This document shows positions 40,624 through 49,176 of a DNA stretch of 64,000 nt, piece after piece (positions within the stretch are counted from its first letter, which is position 1; each line of letters starts with the position of its first letter). The stretch is from the NCBI RefSeq assembly GCF_022662015.1, contig NZ_JAKMCM010000003.1, positions 434,001 through 498,000 on the forward strand, read 5' to 3'. The notes beneath the pieces were generated by a model. It did not search any database. It worked only from the letters and a program-made list of their open reading frames with translations, and had not been told where the DNA came from. Made by a program: the position numbers and the translations under genes. The DNA is from Aestuariivivens sediminicola. Lineage in GTDB: Bacteria > Bacteroidota > Bacteroidia > Flavobacteriales > Flavobacteriaceae.

Positions 40624-40656
40624 TTTGGATATTTAAGTATTATTTACAGATATTTG
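40624..40656 (+). promoter_or_regulatory. promoter of the his operon
   Basis: -33 TTTG at 40624-40627 and a near-consensus -7 box GATATTTG (40649-40656; consensus TAnnTTTG, one mismatch) separated by 21 bp. Predicted +1 near 40663, ten bases before the leader peptide. Confidence 0.65.
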
Positions 40657-40672
40657 TAGCTCAAAAGAAAAC

Positions 40673-40726
40673 ATGAACTTTATTCACACACATCATCATT
40701 CTCTAATTTGCACTCAAGCGAAGTGA
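40673..40726 (+). CDS. his operon leader peptide (attenuator), 17 residues
   Basis: ATG at 40673, TGA at 40724-40726, encoding MNFIHTHHHSLICTQAK. Four of residues 5-9 are His (cac aca cat cat cat), a dense run expected of a leader peptide that senses charged tRNA-His. It lies 107 bp before hisG and about 10 bases after the predicted transcription start. The last codons overlap the sequence CTCAAGCG (40713-40720), which can pair with the left arm of the downstream terminator. A ribosome that reaches the stop codon would cover this segment. The peptide itself probably has no other role. Confidence 0.85.
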   Translation: MNFIHTHHHSLICTQAK

Positions 40727-40786
40727 AGATGTATTGAATAAAATCAAGATATTTTAAACCCGTTTGAGACAATCAAGCGGGTTTTT
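40713..40786 (+). promoter_or_regulatory. his attenuator: antiterminator segment and terminator
   Basis: CTCAAGCG (40713-40720) can pair with CGTTTGAG (40761-40768; eight pairs, one G-U). That same sequence forms part of the left arm of the terminator: AAACCCGTTTGA (40756-40767) with TCAAGCGGGTTT (40773-40784; twelve pairs, one G-U). The two pairings are mutually exclusive. Stalling at the His codons leaves CTCAAGCG free and favours the antiterminator; reading through to the TGA would mask it and favour termination. Confidence 0.85.
40756..40786 (+). terminator. attenuator terminator upstream of hisG
   Basis: Twelve-pair stem, loop gacaa, then TTTTT starting within the right arm (40782-40786). 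It lies 48 bp before hisG. Confidence 0.88.
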
Positions 40787-40833
40787 CATTTAAAAACTTT
40801 AGAGGATTGTTTCAGACTCACAAATAATATAAA

Positions 40834-41691
40834 ATGAGTAAGTTAAGAATAGCAGTTCAAAAATCTGGACGATTAAACGAGGACTCCATGAGGATTTTAA
40901 AGGATATTGGTATAGCCATTGACAATGGTAAGGACCAATTGAAAGCGTCAGCGAGGGATTTCCCCGTTGAGGTGTTTTATTTGAGAAATGGCGATATCCC
41001 GCAATACCTAAAAGATGGAGTCGTTGATGCGGCCATAATAGGTGAGAATGTATTGATAGAAAAAGGAGAAGGCATTGCTATAGCTGAGCGGCTCGGCTTT
41101 TCAAAATGTCGCGTTTGTATCGCGGTGCCTAAATCTGTGAACTATTCGAATATCAAAGACCTGCAAGGAAAGCGTATCGCAACGTCCTATCCGGTTACTG
41201 TTCAAAAGTTTCTGGACAAGCATGACGTTTTAGCCAACCTGCACATCATCAATGGTTCTGTAGAAATTGCGCCCAATATTGGATTGGCTGATGCTATTTG
41301 TGATATTGTTTCCAGTGGAAGCACCTTATTTAAAAATAATTTAAAGGAAGTTGAAACAATATTGAAATCTGAAGCCGTATTGGCAGTTTCACCTGTTTTA
41401 ACCGAAGATAAAAAATCCATATTAAGCACCATACAATTTCGAATACGATCGGTATTAAAAGGAAGAAATTCAAGATATATCCTTTTGAACGCGCCCAATG
41501 ATAAGTTAAATGATATTATTAGTGTATTGCCGGGCATGAAAAGCCCGACAGTATTGCCTTTAGCGGAAGAGGGTTGGAGTTCTGTTCACTCTGTAATAAG
41601 TAAAAATGAATTCTGGGATGTTATAGATGACCTCAAAGCAAAGGGTGCGCAAGGTATATTAGTTTGTCCAATTGAGAAAATGGTATTATAA
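40834..41691 (+). CDS. hisG: ATP phosphoribosyltransferase
   Basis: 285 residues. It catalyses the first step of histidine synthesis, condensing ATP and PRPP, and is normally inhibited by histidine. The long-form HisG is indicated by length and by a C-terminal regulatory domain after about residue 215 (NDKLNDIISVLPGMKSPTVL). The catalytic part contains LRIAVQKSGRLNEDSM, and the PRPP loop is in DIVSSGSTLFKNNLKEVE. It is the first gene of the operon, behind an attenuator. hisD starts 1 bp after its stop. Confidence 0.96.
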   Translation: MSKLRIAVQKSGRLNEDSMRILKDIGIAIDNGKDQLKASARDFPVEVFYLRNGDIPQYLKDGVVDAAIIGENVLIEKGEGIAIAERLGFSKCRVCIAVPKSVNYSNIKDLQGKRIATSYPVTVQKFLDKHDVLANLHIINGSVEIAPNIGLADAICDIVSSGSTLFKNNLKEVETILKSEAVLAVSPVLTEDKKSILSTIQFRIRSVLKGRNSRYILLNAPNDKLNDIISVLPGMKSPTVLPLAEEGWSSVHSVISKNEFWDVIDDLKAKGAQGILVCPIEKMVL

Positions 41692-41692
41692 A

Positions 41693-42979
41693 ATGCAAAT
41701 AATAGATAACCCAAATAAGGACCTGTGGTCCGATATCCTGCGCAGACCGACACAGACCGTAAAAGATATCGAAGGGATTGTAAATACGGTTTTTCAAGAC
41801 GTACAGCAAAACGGAGATCGATCTGTAAGGAATTATACAAAGGAATTTGACGGTGTTTTGTTGCAAAATAATTTAGTGTCTTCAGAGGAAACTGAAGAAG
41901 CGACCGAAAAGGTATCGAAGGCATTAAAGACAGCCATCAAAACTGCAAAGCAGCATATTGAATTATTCCATGCTGCTCAAAAAACCTCGAGAATCGAAAT
42001 TGAAACATCTCATGGGGTCCGTTGCTGGCAGGAAAAAAGACCTATTGAACGTGTGGGATTGTATATCCCTGGGGGAACAGCACCCTTATTTTCAACTGTT
42101 TTGATGTTGGCCATTCCGGCCAAACTTGCAGGTTGTAAAGAGGTGATATTGTGTTCACCCCCGAATAAGGACGGGAAAATGGCCCCAGAAATTGTGTATG
42201 CAGCAGCACTTTGCGGTGTAAATCAGATTTTTAAAGTTGGAGGAATTCAGGCTATAGCCGCATTAACCTTTGGAACCGAAACGATACCTCAGGTATATAA
42301 GATTTTCGGACCTGGAAATCAATTTGTAACCGTCGCCAAACAATTGGCTACAACCTATGGTGTAGCTATAGATATGCCGGCAGGACCCAGTGAATTGTTG
42401 ATTGTCGCAGATGCATCTGCCAATGCAGCTTATATAGCTTCGGATTTATTGAGTCAAGCAGAGCACGGTACAGATAGCCAGGTAATTTTAGTGTCAACCA
42501 GTAAAAAATTATTAGATCAGGTATCTGAAGAAATAGATGTACAACTCCAAGCGCTACCGAGAAAGGTGATTGCTGAAAAATCGATTGCTAACTCTAAGTT
42601 GCTATTTCTTGAAAATGATGAAGTTGCGCTGGATTTGATAAACACATATGGTCCGGAACATTTTATCATCTGTGTTGAAAATGAAGATTTTTATGTACGA
42701 GGAATTAATAACGCAGGTTCTGTATTTATTGGTCAGTTTACTCCGGAAAGTGCCGGTGATTATGCTTCGGGTACGAATCATACACTACCCACCAACGGCT
42801 ATTGTAAAGCCTATTCCGGTGTGAACTTGGATAGCTTTTTTAAGAGCATGACCTTCCAGAAAATTACAAGTGAAGGACTTTTAAATATAGGAGAAACTAT
42901 TGAGCTAATGGCCGAGGCGGAAGGGCTTCAGGCCCATAAAAATGCGGTGAGTATACGTTTAAAGGATTTACAAAAGTAG
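41693..42979 (+). CDS. hisD: histidinol dehydrogenase
   Basis: 428 residues from ATG 41693 (MQIIDNPNKDLWSDIL); an upstream in-frame ATG at 41672 lies within hisG and is rejected. It oxidises histidinol to histidine in two NAD-dependent steps, zinc-dependent. Signature regions are ERVGLYIPGGTAPLFSTVLM, KVGGIQAIAALTFGTETIPQ, DMPAGPSELLIVAD and TPESAGDYASGTNHTLPT. The catalytic Glu and His are in TYGPEHFIICVEN. The start lies 1 bp after the hisG stop, so translation is coupled. Confidence 0.96.
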   Translation: MQIIDNPNKDLWSDILRRPTQTVKDIEGIVNTVFQDVQQNGDRSVRNYTKEFDGVLLQNNLVSSEETEEATEKVSKALKTAIKTAKQHIELFHAAQKTSRIEIETSHGVRCWQEKRPIERVGLYIPGGTAPLFSTVLMLAIPAKLAGCKEVILCSPPNKDGKMAPEIVYAAALCGVNQIFKVGGIQAIAALTFGTETIPQVYKIFGPGNQFVTVAKQLATTYGVAIDMPAGPSELLIVADASANAAYIASDLLSQAEHGTDSQVILVSTSKKLLDQVSEEIDVQLQALPRKVIAEKSIANSKLLFLENDEVALDLINTYGPEHFIICVENEDFYVRGINNAGSVFIGQFTPESAGDYASGTNHTLPTNGYCKAYSGVNLDSFFKSMTFQKITSEGLLNIGETIELMAEAEGLQAHKNAVSIRLKDLQK

Positions 42980-43044
42980 TCTGTTGTTAATAGTGATAAA
43001 ATAAAATTATAAAGTTGCCGGTTCTATAGCCTAAGTATAAAGAA

Positions 43045-44091
43045 ATGAATGTTTTAGAATTAATAAGACCGAATATATTGACACTTAAACCATATGCATC
43101 TGCGAGAGATGAGTTTCAAGGTACAAGTGACCCTATGGTATTTTTAGATGCTAACGAGAATCCATTTGACAATGGTGTGAATCGATACCCGGATCCCTTA
43201 CAGAAAAACCTGAAATCTGTATTATCTAAAATAAAGGGACTTTCGGAAGATCATATTTTGTTGGGTAATGGTAGTGATGAGGTCTTGGATTTAATTCTTC
43301 GTGTGTTTTGTGAGCCATATCAAGATAATATTATTACACTGCCACCTACCTATGGTATGTATAGTGTACTGGCCAATATAAATGCTGTGAACATTAAAGA
43401 GGTGCAGTTATCAGAGGACTTTCAACCAGAAGTTGAGGAAATTTTGAATCGCGCTGATGCTAAGAGCAAATTATTATTTTTATGTTCACCTAATAATCCA
43501 AGTGGGAATAGTTTTTCACAGGAATCGATTGAGGCATTATTAAAAAAATTCCCGGGTATAATAGTGATAGATGAGGCTTATATTGACTTTACCGAACATA
43601 CAAGTTGGATTGACAGATTACAGGAGTACCCTAATTTAATTGTAACGCAAACGCTTTCTAAAGCTTATGGAATGGCAGGTATTCGTTTAGGAATCTGTTA
43701 TGCTTCCCCAACCATTATTTCTGTTTTAACTCGGATTAAACCACCATATAATGTGAATGAGCTCACCCAGAAGCGTGCGATCGAGCAATTACAAAATATA
43801 AGGGTAATGCAAGGTCAGGTTCAATATATCCTGAAGGAAAGGGATGCATTGATTAAAGGATTGAAGAAAATTTCATTTGTATCAAAGGTTTACCCGACCG
43901 ATGCTAATTTTGTGCTGGTAAAAGTAGATGATGCCACAAAGCGTTACAATCAGTTGATAGAGAAAGGAATTGTGGTTCGAAACAGAACAACCCAGCCGGG
44001 TTGCAAAAACTGTCTTAGATTTACGGTGGGCATATCAGCAGAAAATAAAGCATTATTGGAAGCCTTGAATGATTTAAATGATGTTTTATAA
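43045..44091 (+). CDS. hisC: histidinol-phosphate aminotransferase
   Basis: 348 residues, a class I/II PLP aminotransferase. It transfers the amino group from glutamate to imidazole-acetol phosphate. The N-terminal LIRPNILTLKPYASAR and FLDANENPF are standard. LLGNGSDEVLDLILRVF is the PLP-phosphate region, LCSPNNPSGN and IVIDEAYIDF carry Asn and Asp contacts, and the PLP Lys is in TLSKAYGMAGIRLG. It is the third gene of the operon, 65 bp after hisD. Confidence 0.95.
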   Translation: MNVLELIRPNILTLKPYASARDEFQGTSDPMVFLDANENPFDNGVNRYPDPLQKNLKSVLSKIKGLSEDHILLGNGSDEVLDLILRVFCEPYQDNIITLPPTYGMYSVLANINAVNIKEVQLSEDFQPEVEEILNRADAKSKLLFLCSPNNPSGNSFSQESIEALLKKFPGIIVIDEAYIDFTEHTSWIDRLQEYPNLIVTQTLSKAYGMAGIRLGICYASPTIISVLTRIKPPYNVNELTQKRAIEQLQNIRVMQGQVQYILKERDALIKGLKKISFVSKVYPTDANFVLVKVDDATKRYNQLIEKGIVVRNRTTQPGCKNCLRFTVGISAENKALLEALNDLNDVL

Positions 44092-44201
44092 GAATAAACA
44101 TGGGATTGCACGAGTAGTATTGGAGTTAATAAACAGAATAATTAAAACAGTAAGCAATCATTGTTGATCTCAATGGAAAGTGAAATGTTAGAAATAAAGC
44201 C

Positions 44202-45347
44202 ATGAAAAAGAAGATATTATTCATCGATAGAGATGGTACATTGGTCATAGAACCTCCTGTAGACTATCAGCTAGACAGTCTGGAAAAACTGGAATATTAC
44301 CCTAAAGTATTTCAATATATGGCAAAAATTGCTCATGAATTGGACTTCGAGCTGGTTATGGTCACCAATCAGGATGGTCTTGGTACAGCATCATTTCCTG
44401 AAGATGCATTTTGGCCGATACAAAATAAAATTATTAATGCTTTTGCCAATGAAGGCGTTGAATTTTCTGCTGTTCACATCGATAGAACCTTTCCACATGA
44501 GAATGCCCCAACGCGTAAACCAAAAACGGGTTTATTGAAACAGTATTTCTCTGATGATTACGATTTAGAGAATTCATTCGTCCTGGGAGATCGAATTACC
44601 GATATGGAATTAGCTAAAAACTTAGGTGCAAAGGGAATTTATCTATCCGAAATTCAAGACATGGGCTTGGGGAGTGACGAAATTGAGTCGTCCAAACAAG
44701 AAATTTTAGATTGTATTGTATTGAACACAACCCAATGGAGCGAAATATATGAGTTTTTGAAATTGCAGGATCGTGTGGCTGAAATTACACGTAATACCAA
44801 TGAAACAAAAATTTATATAAAGTTGAACTTAGACGGATCGGGTCGCAATGAAATCCATACCGGGCTGTCTTTCTTTGACCATATGCTGGATCAGATAGGA
44901 CGCCATGGCGCTATGGACCTCACCATAAGGGTAGACGGCGATCTGGAAGTTGATGAGCATCATACCATTGAGGATACTATGATCGCCCTGGGTGAGGTTT
45001 TTCATAAGGCCTTAGGAAATAAACTTGGCATAGAACGTTATGGCTTTTGTCTTCCTATGGATGATTGTCTTGCTCAAGTGGCAGTCGACTTCGGAGGAAG
45101 AAACTGGCTGGAATGGGAGGCCGAATTCAAACGGGAGAAAATAGGAGATATGCCTACCGAAATGTTTTTTCATTTGTTCAAGTCCTTTACTGACGGGGCT
45201 AAGTGTAATTTAAATATTAAAGCTGAAGGTACCAACGAGCACCATAAAATTGAAGGTATATTTAAAGCCTTTGCAAAAGCCATGAAGATGGCGGTAAAAC
45301 GTGATGCCAATAAGATGTTTTTACCGAGTACAAAAGGGATGCTTTAA
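44202..45347 (+). CDS. hisB: bifunctional histidinol-phosphatase / imidazoleglycerol-phosphate dehydratase
   Basis: 381 residues. The N-terminal HAD phosphatase (about 1-165) has D9-x-D11 in [10 protein letters not shown], and VTNQDGLGT. The C-terminal dehydratase (about 195-381) has [27 protein letters not shown] and [11 protein letters not shown], which bind manganese. In the HAD domain the loop that in E. coli HisB holds structural zinc (C93, H95, C101, C103) reads [16 protein letters not shown] here, with none of these ligands. The phosphatase core is otherwise intact. It performs steps seven and nine of the pathway. Confidence 0.95.
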
Positions 45348-45422
45348 GATGAATTATGAAAATATAATTAAGGAATAGGCTAATTTTTTAAGCTGAATAT
45401 CAAAATCTTAATAAATCGAAAG

Positions 45423-46004
45423 TTGAAATTAGTTATAATAGATTATGGTGCCGGGAATATTAAAAGCATACAATTTGCTTTTAAACGATTAGGATGTGAG
45501 GCTGTATTGTCTAAAATCCCAGTTGAGATCAGAAGTGCAGATAAGATAATATTTCCAGGAGTTGGAGAAGCCAGTTCAGCCATGAAAATGTTAAAGGAAA
45601 ACCATTTGGACAGATTAATACCCACCCTCAAACAGCCGGTCCTGGGCATTTGCTTAGGTATGCAGTTGATGTGCCAACATACGGAAGAGGGTAATACAAA
45701 GGGTTTGGACATTTTTAAAACCGATGTAAAGCGATTTTCGAATTCTGTTAAAGTACCGCAAATGGGATGGAATATTATTAAAGATTTAAAATCAGATTTA
45801 TTTAAGGGTATTAAGGAAAAGGAATATATGTACCTGGTGCATAGTTATTACGCGGAACACTGTGCGGAAACTATTGCTACCACCGATTACGAAATAAATT
45901 ATGCCACGGCGTTGAAGCATGAAAATTTTTATGGTGTCCAATTTCATCCTGAAAAGAGCAGTGTTGCAGGCGAACAGATATTAAAGAATTTTTTAGAGTT
46001 ATAA
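45423..46004 (+). CDS. hisH: imidazole glycerol phosphate synthase, glutaminase subunit
   Basis: 193 residues of class I glutamine amidotransferase. The nucleophile Cys is in LGICLGMQLM, and the catalytic His and Glu in GVQFHPEKSS near the end. The N-terminal LVIIDYGAGNIKSI is typical of HisH. Start is TTG at 45423, as no ATG is near and the first strand is complete. It supplies ammonia to HisF, encoded two genes later. Confidence 0.95.
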   Translation: MKLVIIDYGAGNIKSIQFAFKRLGCEAVLSKIPVEIRSADKIIFPGVGEASSAMKMLKENHLDRLIPTLKQPVLGICLGMQLMCQHTEEGNTKGLDIFKTDVKRFSNSVKVPQMGWNIIKDLKSDLFKGIKEKEYMYLVHSYYAEHCAETIATTDYEINYATALKHENFYGVQFHPEKSSVAGEQILKNFLEL

Positions 46005-46056
46005 AAGTTTGGATTTTATAAGATTAATACCATAACTGTCTAAAAAGAAAAAGAAC

Positions 46057-46791
46057 ATGAGGATCATACCCGCCATAGATATTATTGAAGGAAAGTGCGT
46101 TCGTTTGACCAAAGGGGATTATGGCACAAAAAAAATATACAGTGAAAGCCCATTGGAAATTGCCAAGACTTTTGAAGGGTCAGGTATACAAAATTTGCAC
46201 TTGGTAGATTTAGATGGTGCAAAAGCACAGCATATTGTAAACTATAAAGTTTTGGAACAAATAGCTTCAAAAACCGCTTTAAAAATAGATTTTGGTGGGG
46301 GATTAAAAACCAATGAGGACTTACATATTGCTTTTAATTCGGGAGCAAGACAGGTTACCGGAGGAAGTATTGCCGTTAAGGATCCTGTAACATTTGAAGG
46401 ATGGATTTCAAAATATGGGTCAGCAAAAATAATATTGGGCGCAGATTCCGACAATGGTAAGGTAGCGATCAGCGGATGGACTGAGCAAAGTGAAAAGGAT
46501 CTTATGCCTTTTATTAAAGGGTATCAGAAAAAAGGCATACGATATGTAATTTGCACCGATATATCAAAAGATGGTATGTTGCAAGGTCCTTCAACAGATC
46601 TTTACAAAACTATTATTGCTGAATGTACCAATAGTAGCAGCGATCAATCCATTAAGCTCATTGCTTCAGGAGGGATTTCTTCAATAGATGAGATACCGCT
46701 TTTAAAGGAAATCGGCTGTGAGGGTGTTATTATTGGTAAGGCACTCTATGAGAATAAAATTAGTTTAAAGCAATTGGAAAAATTCATTTAA
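46057..46791 (+). CDS. hisA: phosphoribosylformimino-AICAR phosphate isomerase
   Basis: 244 residues of (beta-alpha)8 fold. It isomerises ProFAR to PRFAR. The catalytic Asp at position 8 lies in [20 protein letters not shown]; a second acid is expected in [23 protein letters not shown] and [10 protein letters not shown] are also typical, as is [11 protein letters not shown] near the C-terminus for phosphate binding. It lies 52 bp after hisH. Confidence 0.95.
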
Positions 46792-46881
46792 TAGAGCAAG
46801 GATTCCATGTCGAGGGAAGTAGAAAGCGAATTACTATATGCATTAAATTGAATTTCATCATCTTAATTTTATGTTGAAACA

Positions 46882-47637
46882 ATGTTAACAAAACGAATCA
46901 TTCCATGCTTGGATATAAAAAACGGACGCACTGTAAAGGGTGTTAATTTCGTGGATTTACGTGATGCAGGCGACCCTGTAGTATTGGCAAAACAATATGC
47001 GGAACGTGGAGCAGACGAACTTGTTTTTTTGGATATATCGGCTACGTTGGAGGAGCGTGCAACTGTTTTGGATATGGTATTGCACGTAGCAGAACAGGTG
47101 AATATACCGTTTACTGTTGGAGGCGGTATTTCAAGTGTTGAGCATGTAGATGCCTTGTTGAAATGCGGGGCTGATAAGGTTTCCATCAACTCATCTGCAG
47201 TAAAACGACCCGAATTAATAAATGAATTGGCCGATAAATTTGGCAGTCAATGTGTTGTTGTTGCTATTGACGCAAAGCAAATTGCTGGTGAATGGAAAGT
47301 GCATTTAGCAGGTGGAAGCGTTCCTACCAATATTGATTTATATGAATGGGCGCATGAAGTGGAACAACGAGGAGCAGGGGAAATTTTATTTACTTCTATG
47401 GACCACGATGGAACGAAAAACGGTTTTGCCAACGTGGCCCTTGCCAAATTATCTAAAGCGCTGAATATTCCCATCATTGCCTCAGGAGGAGCGGGAAATG
47501 TTCAACATTTTATTGATACGTTCAAAGAAGGACTGGCTGATGCGGCATTGGCTGCGAGTGTATTTCATTTTGATGAAATACCTATTATTGAATTAAAAGA
47601 GGCCTTAAGACGGCATAATATAGAAGTAAGACTATAG
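46882..47637 (+). CDS. hisF: imidazole glycerol phosphate synthase, cyclase subunit
   Basis: 251 residues, (beta-alpha)8 fold. The catalytic Asp11 is in [19 protein letters not shown] and the second Asp in [11 protein letters not shown] near residue 130. The phosphate-binding loop [13 protein letters not shown] is intact, as are [13 protein letters not shown] and [15 protein letters not shown]. With HisH it produces imidazole glycerol phosphate and AICAR. Confidence 0.96.
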
Positions 47638-47704
47638 TGGTTTAACCTGATTGCTAAAGAACAATCCTATTGAATTGGTGTTTCAGTTTTTAAATTAAGA
47701 TATT

Positions 47705-48298
47705 ATGACAATTAAATATGATGATAATGGATTAGTCCCGGCGATTATTCAGGATGCCGTGACCAAAAATGTGTTAATGTTGGGCTATATGAATGAAGCC
47801 GCTTATCAAAAAACAATAGAGACCAAAAAAGTGACATTTTTTAGTAGGAGTAAGCAACGCCTTTGGACCAAAGGGGAGGAGAGTGGGCATTTTTTAAACT
47901 TGGTCAATATAAAGAACGACTGTGATAATGACACCTTATTAGTTCAGGTAAACCCTGTGGGACCCACTTGTCACAAAGGGACAGATAATTGTTGGGGAGA
48001 GGAAAACACTTCATCATTTGGTTTTATTTCCACTTTAGAAACCATAATTTCGGAACGCATTGCTAATGAAAATACCGACACATCTTATGTCGCTAGTCTG
48101 TTTGCAAAGGGGATTAATAAAGTGGCTCAAAAAGTTGGAGAGGAAGCCGTTGAAACAGTAATAGAGGCCTTGGACAACAATGATGAGCAGTTTATTTATG
48201 AATCAGCCGATTTGTTGTTCCACTATCTTTTGCTATTGCAGGCCAAGGGTTTTTCTTTTAAGGACATTGAAGCAGAATTAAAGAGCAGACATAAATAA
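47705..48298 (+). CDS. hisIE: bifunctional phosphoribosyl-AMP cyclohydrolase / phosphoribosyl-ATP pyrophosphatase
   Basis: 197 residues. The N-terminal HisI part (about 1-105) contains VLMLGYMNEAAYQKTIET, FFSRSKQRLWTKGEESGH and the zinc and metal residues in NDCDNDTLLVQV and GPTCHKGTDNCW. The C-terminal HisE part (about 115-197) has the metal-binding E-rich helix QKVGEEAVETVIEA. The fusion provides steps two and three. It is the last gene of the operon. I found no terminator in the 100 bp behind it. Confidence 0.95.
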   Translation: MTIKYDDNGLVPAIIQDAVTKNVLMLGYMNEAAYQKTIETKKVTFFSRSKQRLWTKGEESGHFLNLVNIKNDCDNDTLLVQVNPVGPTCHKGTDNCWGEENTSSFGFISTLETIISERIANENTDTSYVASLFAKGINKVAQKVGEEAVETVIEALDNNDEQFIYESADLLFHYLLLLQAKGFSFKDIEAELKSRHK

Positions 48299-48399: not shown

Positions 48400-49176
48400 T
48401 TGAAAAAATATTTTTACGTTATTTCTATCCAGTATTTGGGGTATCGTTTCCATGGTTGGCAGAAACAAGCGAATCTAAAGACGCTTCACTTAATGGTAGA
48501 CAGAACGCTGAATTATATTTTAGACGGAAAATCATTTAAAACATTATGTGCTGGGAGAACAGATGCCATGGTGTCTGCCGAACAAGCCGCTTTCGAATTG
48601 TTTCTTCAAGAACCAATTGAAGATCCCAACTCCTTTTTAGAACTTTTCAATTATAATTTACCGCAGGATATTCGCGCACTGGACATTCAAGAGGTGGATG
48701 AAAAGTTTAACATCATTCAGCATTCGAAAATTAAGGAATACCATTATTTATTTACCTATGGTGAAAAATGCCATCCCTTTTGTGCACCTATTATGACCAC
48801 CATTTTAGATGATCTGGACATCGATCTGATGAAACAGGGAGCAAAACGGTTTGAAGGCGAACATTACTTTAAATCCTATTGTTATAAACCTACAGATCAT
48901 GGCCTCTATACACGGGAGATTATGCTTTCTGAACTAAATGAAAATACGATTTACAAAGCGAATTATTTTCCCAAGAAAACGTTTTTATATCGCGTAAAAG
49001 GTAAAGGCTTTATGCGAAATCAAATACGGCTAATGATGGGTGCTTTGATAGATTTGGGTAAAGGTAAATTAACATTAGAAGATCTTGAAAAAAGTTTAAT
49101 GCCAGGAAATGACTTGAGAAGAGAGTACATCGCTCCTGCCTCAGGGCTCATCCTAAAACACATTGAATTCCTATAA
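48400..49176 (+). CDS. divergent TruA-family tRNA pseudouridine synthase
   Basis: 258 residues with the TruA fold. The catalytic Asp is retained in CAGRTDAMVSAEQA, but the usual GRTDAGVHA motif is altered to GRTDAMVSA. FHGWQKQ, the conserved KEYHYLF and the later GFMRNQIRLMMGALIDLGKG with the conserved Arg are also family signatures. Start is TTG at 48400. The altered active-site motif and the shortened N-terminal region suggest a paralogue with another target than TruA sites 38-40, or a subgroup of flavobacteria. It is about 100 bp behind hisIE, possibly in the same transcript. Confidence 0.82.
   Translation: MKKYFYVISIQYLGYRFHGWQKQANLKTLHLMVDRTLNYILDGKSFKTLCAGRTDAMVSAEQAAFELFLQEPIEDPNSFLELFNYNLPQDIRALDIQEVDEKFNIIQHSKIKEYHYLFTYGEKCHPFCAPIMTTILDDLDIDLMKQGAKRFEGEHYFKSYCYKPTDHGLYTREIMLSELNENTIYKANYFPKKTFLYRVKGKGFMRNQIRLMMGALIDLGKGKLTLEDLEKSLMPGNDLRREYIAPASGLILKHIEFL

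Follow-up and report, generated by a model that had tools for sequence, protein, structure and literature searches.

A run of consecutive histidine genes lies on the plus strand of the analysed window, a stretch of 64,000 bases from a contig of Aestuariivivens sediminicola. Its first gene, hisG, is separated from the preceding ORF by 309 bases, and these hold a promoter, a leader ORF and a terminator. The features of the region are given below, where letters denote RNA segments; the segments and their pairings were established from the sequence itself and by comparison with relatives.

40624-40656, plus strand: promoter motif, with a -33 element TTTG (40624-40627) and a -7 element GATATTTG (40649-40656), 21 bp apart
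40673-40726, plus strand: leader ORF of 17 codons encoding MNFIHTHHHSLICTQAK, with ATG at 40673, TGA at 40724-40726 and His at positions 5, 7, 8 and 9 (40685-40699)
40679-40694, plus strand: segment A, made of TTTATTCA (40679-40686) and ACATC (40690-40694); pairs with C and would lie under a His-stalled ribosome
40713-40720, plus strand: segment B, the antiterminator CTCAAGCG, within the last leader codons
40728-40753, plus strand: segments C and C', where C is GATGT (40728-40732) plus TGAATAAA (40735-40742) and pairs either with A or with C' (local hairpin 40728-40753)
40756-40774, plus strand: segment D, of which 40756-40767 is the terminator arm, 40761-40768 pairs with B and 40762-40774 pairs with F
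40773-40786, plus strand: segment E, the 3' arm of the terminator (40773-40784), with a T run at 40782-40786
40805-40817, plus strand: segment F, GATTGTTTCAGAC, which pairs with D as its second downstream partner and lies 16 bases ahead of the hisG ATG
40834-48298, plus strand: his operon, the consecutive genes hisG hisD hisC hisB hisH hisA hisF hisIE, putatively regulated by the leader

The element before hisG is very probably a ribosome-mediated transcription attenuator of hisGDCBHAFIE that also carries a real, selected pairing between D and F. It combines a short leader ORF with His codons, an intrinsic terminator before hisG and an antiterminator that shares an arm with this terminator. 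The leader RNA folds with a z-score of -5.34, and 0/200 shuffles were equally good. Between 39000 and 43000, Rfam models gave no attenuator match (His_leader RF00514 included) and the T-box riboswitch model gave none upstream of hisG, in both cases with E-values up to 5; two sub-threshold hits, to a CRISPR repeat model and to whalefall-1, both fall outside the leader.

The promoter elements match a consensus that we take to be that of Bacteroidota promoters. The initial annotation had read this promoter with its 21-bp spacing, and both are indeed present. A promoter-like motif occurs in 63 of 108 family leaders (window included), 61 of which have a spacing of exactly 21 bp, and any such motif is found in 2.1% of shuffles; the other 45 leaders fall outside the motif as defined. 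Its position would place the transcription start close to the leader ORF. The 17-residue leader peptide with its four His residues, also proposed at the outset, was found again as described, and a leader stands before hisG in all 79 named relatives. Among dinucleotide shuffles of the 250 bases that end at the hisG start, an ORF with at least four His in ten residues arose in 7/5000. The enterobacterial his leader has more His codons than this flavobacterial one.

The terminator (AAACCCGTTTGA/TCAAGCGGGTTT, 40756-40784) has 12 pairs, one of them G-U, and a T run that extends to 40786, as the initial annotation had it. The same holds for the antiterminator said to be hidden in the last leader codons (B): the stretch CGTTTGAG (40761-40768) is complementary to it at 8/8 positions, and the proposed competition for one arm is borne out, with B and E both pairing with D. 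Pairs were counted over 40 leaders in a plain MAFFT alignment. For D:E, 98.5% were paired and four pairs had changed on both sides, against a shuffled mean of 0.5. For B:D, 96.6% were paired, with two both-side-changed pairs (reached by 15/500 shuffles) and a covariation score of 0.097 against 0.074 in shuffles. A covariation check across Flavobacteriaceae, suggested with the initial reading, thus comes out clearly for D:E and weakly for B:D. Together with the conserved leader, the covariation of the two helices argues for ribosome-mediated attenuation of the his operon. In Formosa maritima (L050) a stop codon has appeared within B, and by eye B still pairs with D; B is therefore retained for its RNA pairing.

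Three further elements were absent from the earlier description: the A:C helix, the C:C' helix and segment F. Their conservation overturns the view that the design has a single competitor segment rather than a four-segment layout. The A:C helix connects the beginning of the leader ORF with the sequence that follows its stop codon, and encloses B in untranslated RNA. Across the 40 leaders it is 78.4% paired and scores 0.227, against 0.097 when shuffled and at most 0.157 when slid; six of its pairs have changed on both sides, compared with a shuffled mean of 5.7 (288/500 reach six). A:C is conserved, its covariation is mixed and its changes look clade-level. The C:C' hairpin, which sits within the antiterminator, is 88.0% paired and has five both-side-changed pairs, a number reached by 2/500 shuffles. 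In the enterobacterial his attenuator, a protector hairpin favours termination when there is no translation, and A:C resembles it.

Predicted state energies of the window RNA agree with the logic of a switch. Untranslated, it folds as A:C plus D:E at -33.7 kcal/mol, compared with -18.9 kcal/mol when B:D is forced. When the free RNA starts at 40712 and stops short of E, it forms B:D and C:C' (-16.4 kcal/mol); RNA free from 40737 forms D:E alone. The positions would allow a ribosome that has reached the stop codon to cover B, and one stalled at the His codons to leave it free, as judged with a ribosome footprint whose size we assume, and the folding of the freed RNA is consistent with this. As modelled, the layout is that of classic attenuation logic with a protector hairpin. 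We infer the stalling of the ribosome and the order of events as follows. In untranslated RNA, A:C would close over B, the terminator D:E would form and the operon would be off. With ample charged tRNA-His, the ribosome would get to the stop codon and mask B; D:E would again form and keep the operon off. When His is short, the ribosome would stall on codons 5-9 and cover A, C:C' would fold, B would pair with D, and read-through would turn the operon on.

The comparative basis for his-operon attenuation in Bacteroidota is now at hand. A HisG scan yielded 80 named loci, nearly all from Flavobacteriaceae genera, of which 79 have upstream DNA (L027, whose contig begins inside hisG, was dropped). 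A His leader precedes hisG in 77/79 by a first script and in the other two (L031, L066) by eye and a second script. The window, these 79 loci and 28 further genomes of the same family form the family set of 108 loci, and a short ORF with at least two His in six residues was parsed in 108/108. Loss of the His codons in relatives that keep the terminator, which would have spoken against the initial reading, was therefore not seen in this set. More widely, HisG was found in 252 of the 296 Bacteroidota genomes searched, and 100 upstream regions were chosen by hand (non-randomly) from the HisG places listed. Taking at least three His in ten residues within about 250 bases upstream of hisG as the mark of a leader, we found one in 77/79 named and 28/28 further family loci, against about 3% of shuffles. 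Across the 100 chosen regions, the counts were 28/28 in the family, 5/5 in the order, 30/33 in the class and 19/34 elsewhere in the phylum (shuffles 3-7%). A His-rich leader therefore lies close before hisG in 82 of the 100 regions, and such leaders are common across the Bacteroidota sampled. Terminators and layouts vary between groups. In six other genomes of the class (L122, L124, L126, L128, L138, L143), five to seven His in ten residues precede hisG and, by eye, no convincing intrinsic terminator follows the leader; these leaders may act through translation or another kind of termination. Three reduced genomes of 600 kb, all from a single family of the order (L205, L217, L222), have kept hisG, and no ORF of three His in ten residues was found in the 420 bases upstream of the HisG domain; a strong hairpin precedes hisG in L217 and L222.

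Segment F is a conserved RNA partner past the terminator, a component absent from textbook attenuation. In the window, GTTTGAGACAATC (40762-40774) pairs with F (40805-40817) at 13/13 positions, two of them G-U, and the stretch of D that faces F runs from the top of the arm through the loop into the first two bases of E. Over the 40 aligned leaders, 84.5% of D:F cells are paired and 40 cells have changed on both sides, against a shuffled mean of 16.3 (0/500), in an alignment that shifts F in several Muricauda-type rows. The score is 0.246, compared with 0.130 when shuffled and at most 0.089 when slid. Both-side-changed pairs number six (24/500 shuffles reach this), a moderate signal; the strength lies in cells and score. 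An alignment-free comparison over 26 loop classes gave a mean duplex energy of -10.95 with the own spacer and -7.86 (SD 0.39) with permuted ones, and 0/20,000 permutations did as well; the own spacer beats the median of other loop classes in 85/108 loci and beats 95% of them in only 65/108. Over 42 classes of the 13-mer, drawn from the family set and further loci, the result was again 0/20,000. Against shuffled spacers at the 5% level, D:F was detected in 87/108 family-set loci and in 31/31 further parsed loci with this type of terminator (one of these, L248, belongs to the window's family). With 21/108 family-set loci in which D:F was undetected, 14 of them with a spacer of at least 66 bases, the pairing is not essential.

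Individual loci show how F follows D. In L103 and L106 the core of D is GTCTGA in place of GTTTGA, and F changes to match; L244 has an unrelated terminator (D) sequence to which F is still complementary (1/200 shuffles equally good). Some loop changes are unmatched in F, for example in L025, L009 and L068. Covariation of the loop disfavours F as a promoter, a duplicated arm or a chance match. In L247 (G316, a single genome of 83% completeness), a His leader is followed by a D:E hairpin without a T run and D:F is kept, a hint that D:F can persist where the terminator has decayed. Small palindromes such as CCCGCTTTCTCGGG stand directly before the hisG start, between F and the ATG, in L042, L048, L057, L060, L062 and L070; other palindromic stretches occur between the terminator and F.

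The pairing belongs to this leader type. In his leaders elsewhere in Bacteroidota, D:F at the 5% level was seen in only 2/21 regions of the class and 0/12 of the phylum, a control that covers those with a terminator and a long enough spacer (21/33 and 12/34) in genomes that carry other terminator types. A covariance model of the leader matched 22/295 genomes of the class, and the own genome once, at this site. Thirteen regions were fetched after this search; L258 and L261, without a His leader or hisG, were set aside as chance matches. The other 11 are hisG regions outside the order: F is present in 8/8 of those parsed and, by eye, in L254, and in L259 and L260, which precede hisG with other terminator sequences, F was not parsed. 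F thus tracks leader type rather than order, since leader-bearing genomes outside the order also have it. Outside the family set, 30/61 candidates were unparsed, with no GTYTGA terminator by the script's pattern; among them L113, L233 and L244 still show D:F (0-1/200 shuffles equally good), as does L254 by eye. Five loci (L213, L219, L223, L225, L228) were excluded from the further loci because they come from the same genomes as family-set loci. Within the own genome, a search for F-like 16-mers with at most two mismatches found 13 places, compared with five for a reversed control pattern. The sole perfect match is at hisG and the one-mismatch match lies inside a coding gene; on these two places, the other 11 having two mismatches, F as a general module of the genome was rejected.

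What might D:F do? F is transcribed after the T run, and the idea that it alters termination by that same polymerase was rejected on these grounds; being made after the termination decision, F should act on read-through mRNA. There, as a third partner, it could take D together with the terminator loop. We tentatively favour a hand-over in which F would take D from B and stop the terminator hairpin from re-forming, while D:F would keep F off the hisG start region, such that antiterminated mRNA would also be better translated. Antitermination may in this way be coupled to hisG translation. Put more generally, and just as tentatively, the D arm may be passed along three partners, to B for the transcriptional decision and then, with the loop, to F, with the decision stored in the mRNA and relayed to hisG translation. 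If D:F acts after read-through, two steps would be controlled by one strand; if the hand-over is true, an entire leader type of flavobacteria-like Bacteroidota would share an attenuator that locks in its decision once it is made.

Energy predictions bear on this hand-over. For the window RNA extended by 50 bases of hisG, D:E, D:F and B:D lie within 2 kcal/mol of one another when B is free (-34.7, -33.6 and -32.9 kcal/mol), and D:E is ahead of D:F by 2.5 kcal/mol when B is masked. Comparisons across loci were made for the 86/108 whose D:F duplex is at least as stable as -9 kcal/mol. When the RNAs stop at the start codon, D:F is the minimum in 57/86 loci, and this is reversed when they extend into hisG: with 50 bases of the gene, D:F is better than D:E in only 14/86 and D:E leads by 3.8 kcal/mol on average. 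With D:E ahead in the extended RNAs, D:F would need kinetics or help. In 82/86 loci the hisG start region is predicted to be more open when D pairs with F than when it pairs with E, an effect that is partly trivial because D:F occupies F. When native F is free, the openness of the hisG start is 0.586, compared with 0.627 for shuffled F, and the start is less open in 55/86 loci and 16/21 classes. To a modest extent, these predictions fit the idea that in antiterminated RNA D passes from B to F and the hisG start is freed at the same time.

Another reading, which we consider rather unlikely, is repression in cis: a helix 16 bases upstream of the start would hinder 30S loading on leaky read-through mRNA at high His and so superimpose a translational lock on the attenuation of transcription. 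The distance is suggestive, with the end of F 12-20 bases before the ATG in 64/87 and 30/31 D:F loci. In the Bacillus trp leader, structures of the read-through RNA add translational control. Dual control by a single leader is also known from vmlR, according to the available text of PMC9226507. Against repression, the start region lies outside the helix and, in the 82/86 loci given above, is predicted to be more open with D:F than with the terminator, and seven loci keep D:F with F 34-47 bases from the ATG. Where a palindromic stretch separates F from the ATG, six loci keep the pairing at this distance, which speaks against a role tightly tied to the start codon. The same two points, distance in some loci and the more open start region, disfavour outright occlusion of the start codon by D:F.

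No better placed is the proposal that D:F has no part in His sensing and only affects the stability of the mRNA, the processing of RNA or the pausing of RNA polymerase close to the hisG start; we regard it as doubtful. F does lie downstream of the termination point, D:F and an inner hairpin of the T run would form a long imperfect helix, and 12 family-set loci whose spacer has at least 66 bases retain D:F. On the other hand, the pairing uses exactly the arm of the switch. Since leader and terminator can still be parsed in the 21 loci that lack F, F is an accessory to the switch, a point compatible with this explanation.

Action in trans is unlikely. Here, D in the terminated leader RNA (hairpin top plus loop) would pair with F on full-length his mRNA and repress or destabilise it, in the manner of the attenuator RNA rnTrpL of Sinorhizobium meliloti, which acts in trans. 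The complementarity is centred on the terminator loop, like loop-first pairing of antisense RNAs, the perfect F-like 16-mer is unique to hisG in the own genome, and there are papers on trans-acting attenuator RNAs. However, covariation cannot separate trans from cis, and D would be locked in D:E in the released RNA. Finally, a functionless chance match or inherited duplicate of the terminator arm is most improbable: since D has complements in B, E and F, duplications could easily arise, 21/108 loci are without F and the loop changes of L025, L009 and L068 are unmatched, yet the loop bases covary with F over 42 sequence classes (0/20,000), the unrelated D of L244 has its matching F (1/200) and his leaders elsewhere in the phylum reach only 2/21 and 0/12 at 5%.

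The gene directly downstream of hisIE (48400-49176, plus strand) is a second, divergent TruA (hisT) paralogue, which scores 125.8 bits against TIGR00071 (cut-off 142.85); a better-scoring truA is found elsewhere in the own genome (G000:C20). Such a paralogue is present in 10/25 genomes examined. In five (G000, G053, G103, G118, G130) it shares the strand of hisG at a distance of about 7-11 kb; in G198 it is 10 kb away on the opposite strand; in G088, G107, G134 and G182 it lies on a different contig or no closer than 45 kb. In Salmonella, loss of hisT derepresses his. By analogy, it is conceivable that the paralogue is a dedicated tRNA-modifying partner of the attenuator. The own genome also has attenuator-like leaders before terminators upstream of trpE (MTILNTIWWWCFRN, L198, by eye) and of pheA (MTMTAYYTYFNNWFYFFFR, L189). 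Neither shows an F-like downstream pairing (225/500 and 188/500 shuffles equally good for trp and phe, respectively).

Attenuation of this type had been described at the outset as much less documented here than in Proteobacteria. This is fair. Leader-peptide systems were in 2010 known only from Proteobacteria and Actinobacteria, plus a bacilli case of the authors' own and ermC, according to the available text of PMC2965389. A paper on his genes in Bacteroidota has a single main-text match for 'attenuat', which concerns enterobacteria (PMC8305728, as excerpted). The phylum is not untouched, however: the consulted portions of a 2021 transcriptome study of Flavobacterium psychrophilum (PMC9723704) report clues to leader-peptide attenuation of amino-acid operons and a structured 5' element of hisG, present in other Flavobacteriaceae genera and without Rfam hits. 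It is probably the same element as ours. The main text of that study, in its searchable form, mentions hisG and leader peptide once each, neither time with segments, covariation or F. Among the matches listed from titles and abstracts, supplements aside, none dealt with the segments of this leader or with a downstream partner of the terminator arm.

Among known systems, a close counterpart is the enterobacterial his attenuator (RF00514), which likewise has a His-rich leader before hisG and an alternative antiterminator and terminator (PMC9413887, in the sections available); the present element differs in its segments, in F as a downstream partner of the terminator arm and in having no Rfam match. 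The same sections describe his attenuators in Proteobacteria and candidates in three lineages of Firmicutes (the Bacillus cereus group, Peptostreptococcaceae with Lutispora, and Erysipelotrichales). These candidates have leaders with three to five consecutive His codons and, like the element here, antiterminator and terminator hairpins predicted by comparison only; they belong to another lineage, and the sections mention no F-like segment. The Bacteroid-trp RNA motif (RF01692), in the accessible part of PMC2864571, is a candidate structured RNA of Bacteroidetes, linked to trp by name; it concerns a different operon and has no hit here. In relation to leaders with dual transcriptional and translational control (B. 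subtilis trp, vmlR type), what is conserved in our case is the pairing, while the effect on the start region is predicted and weak. Altogether, the element reads, from sequence comparison, as a well-supported new case of a known mechanism in a poorly covered phylum, and its conserved segment F makes it a variant of that mechanism.
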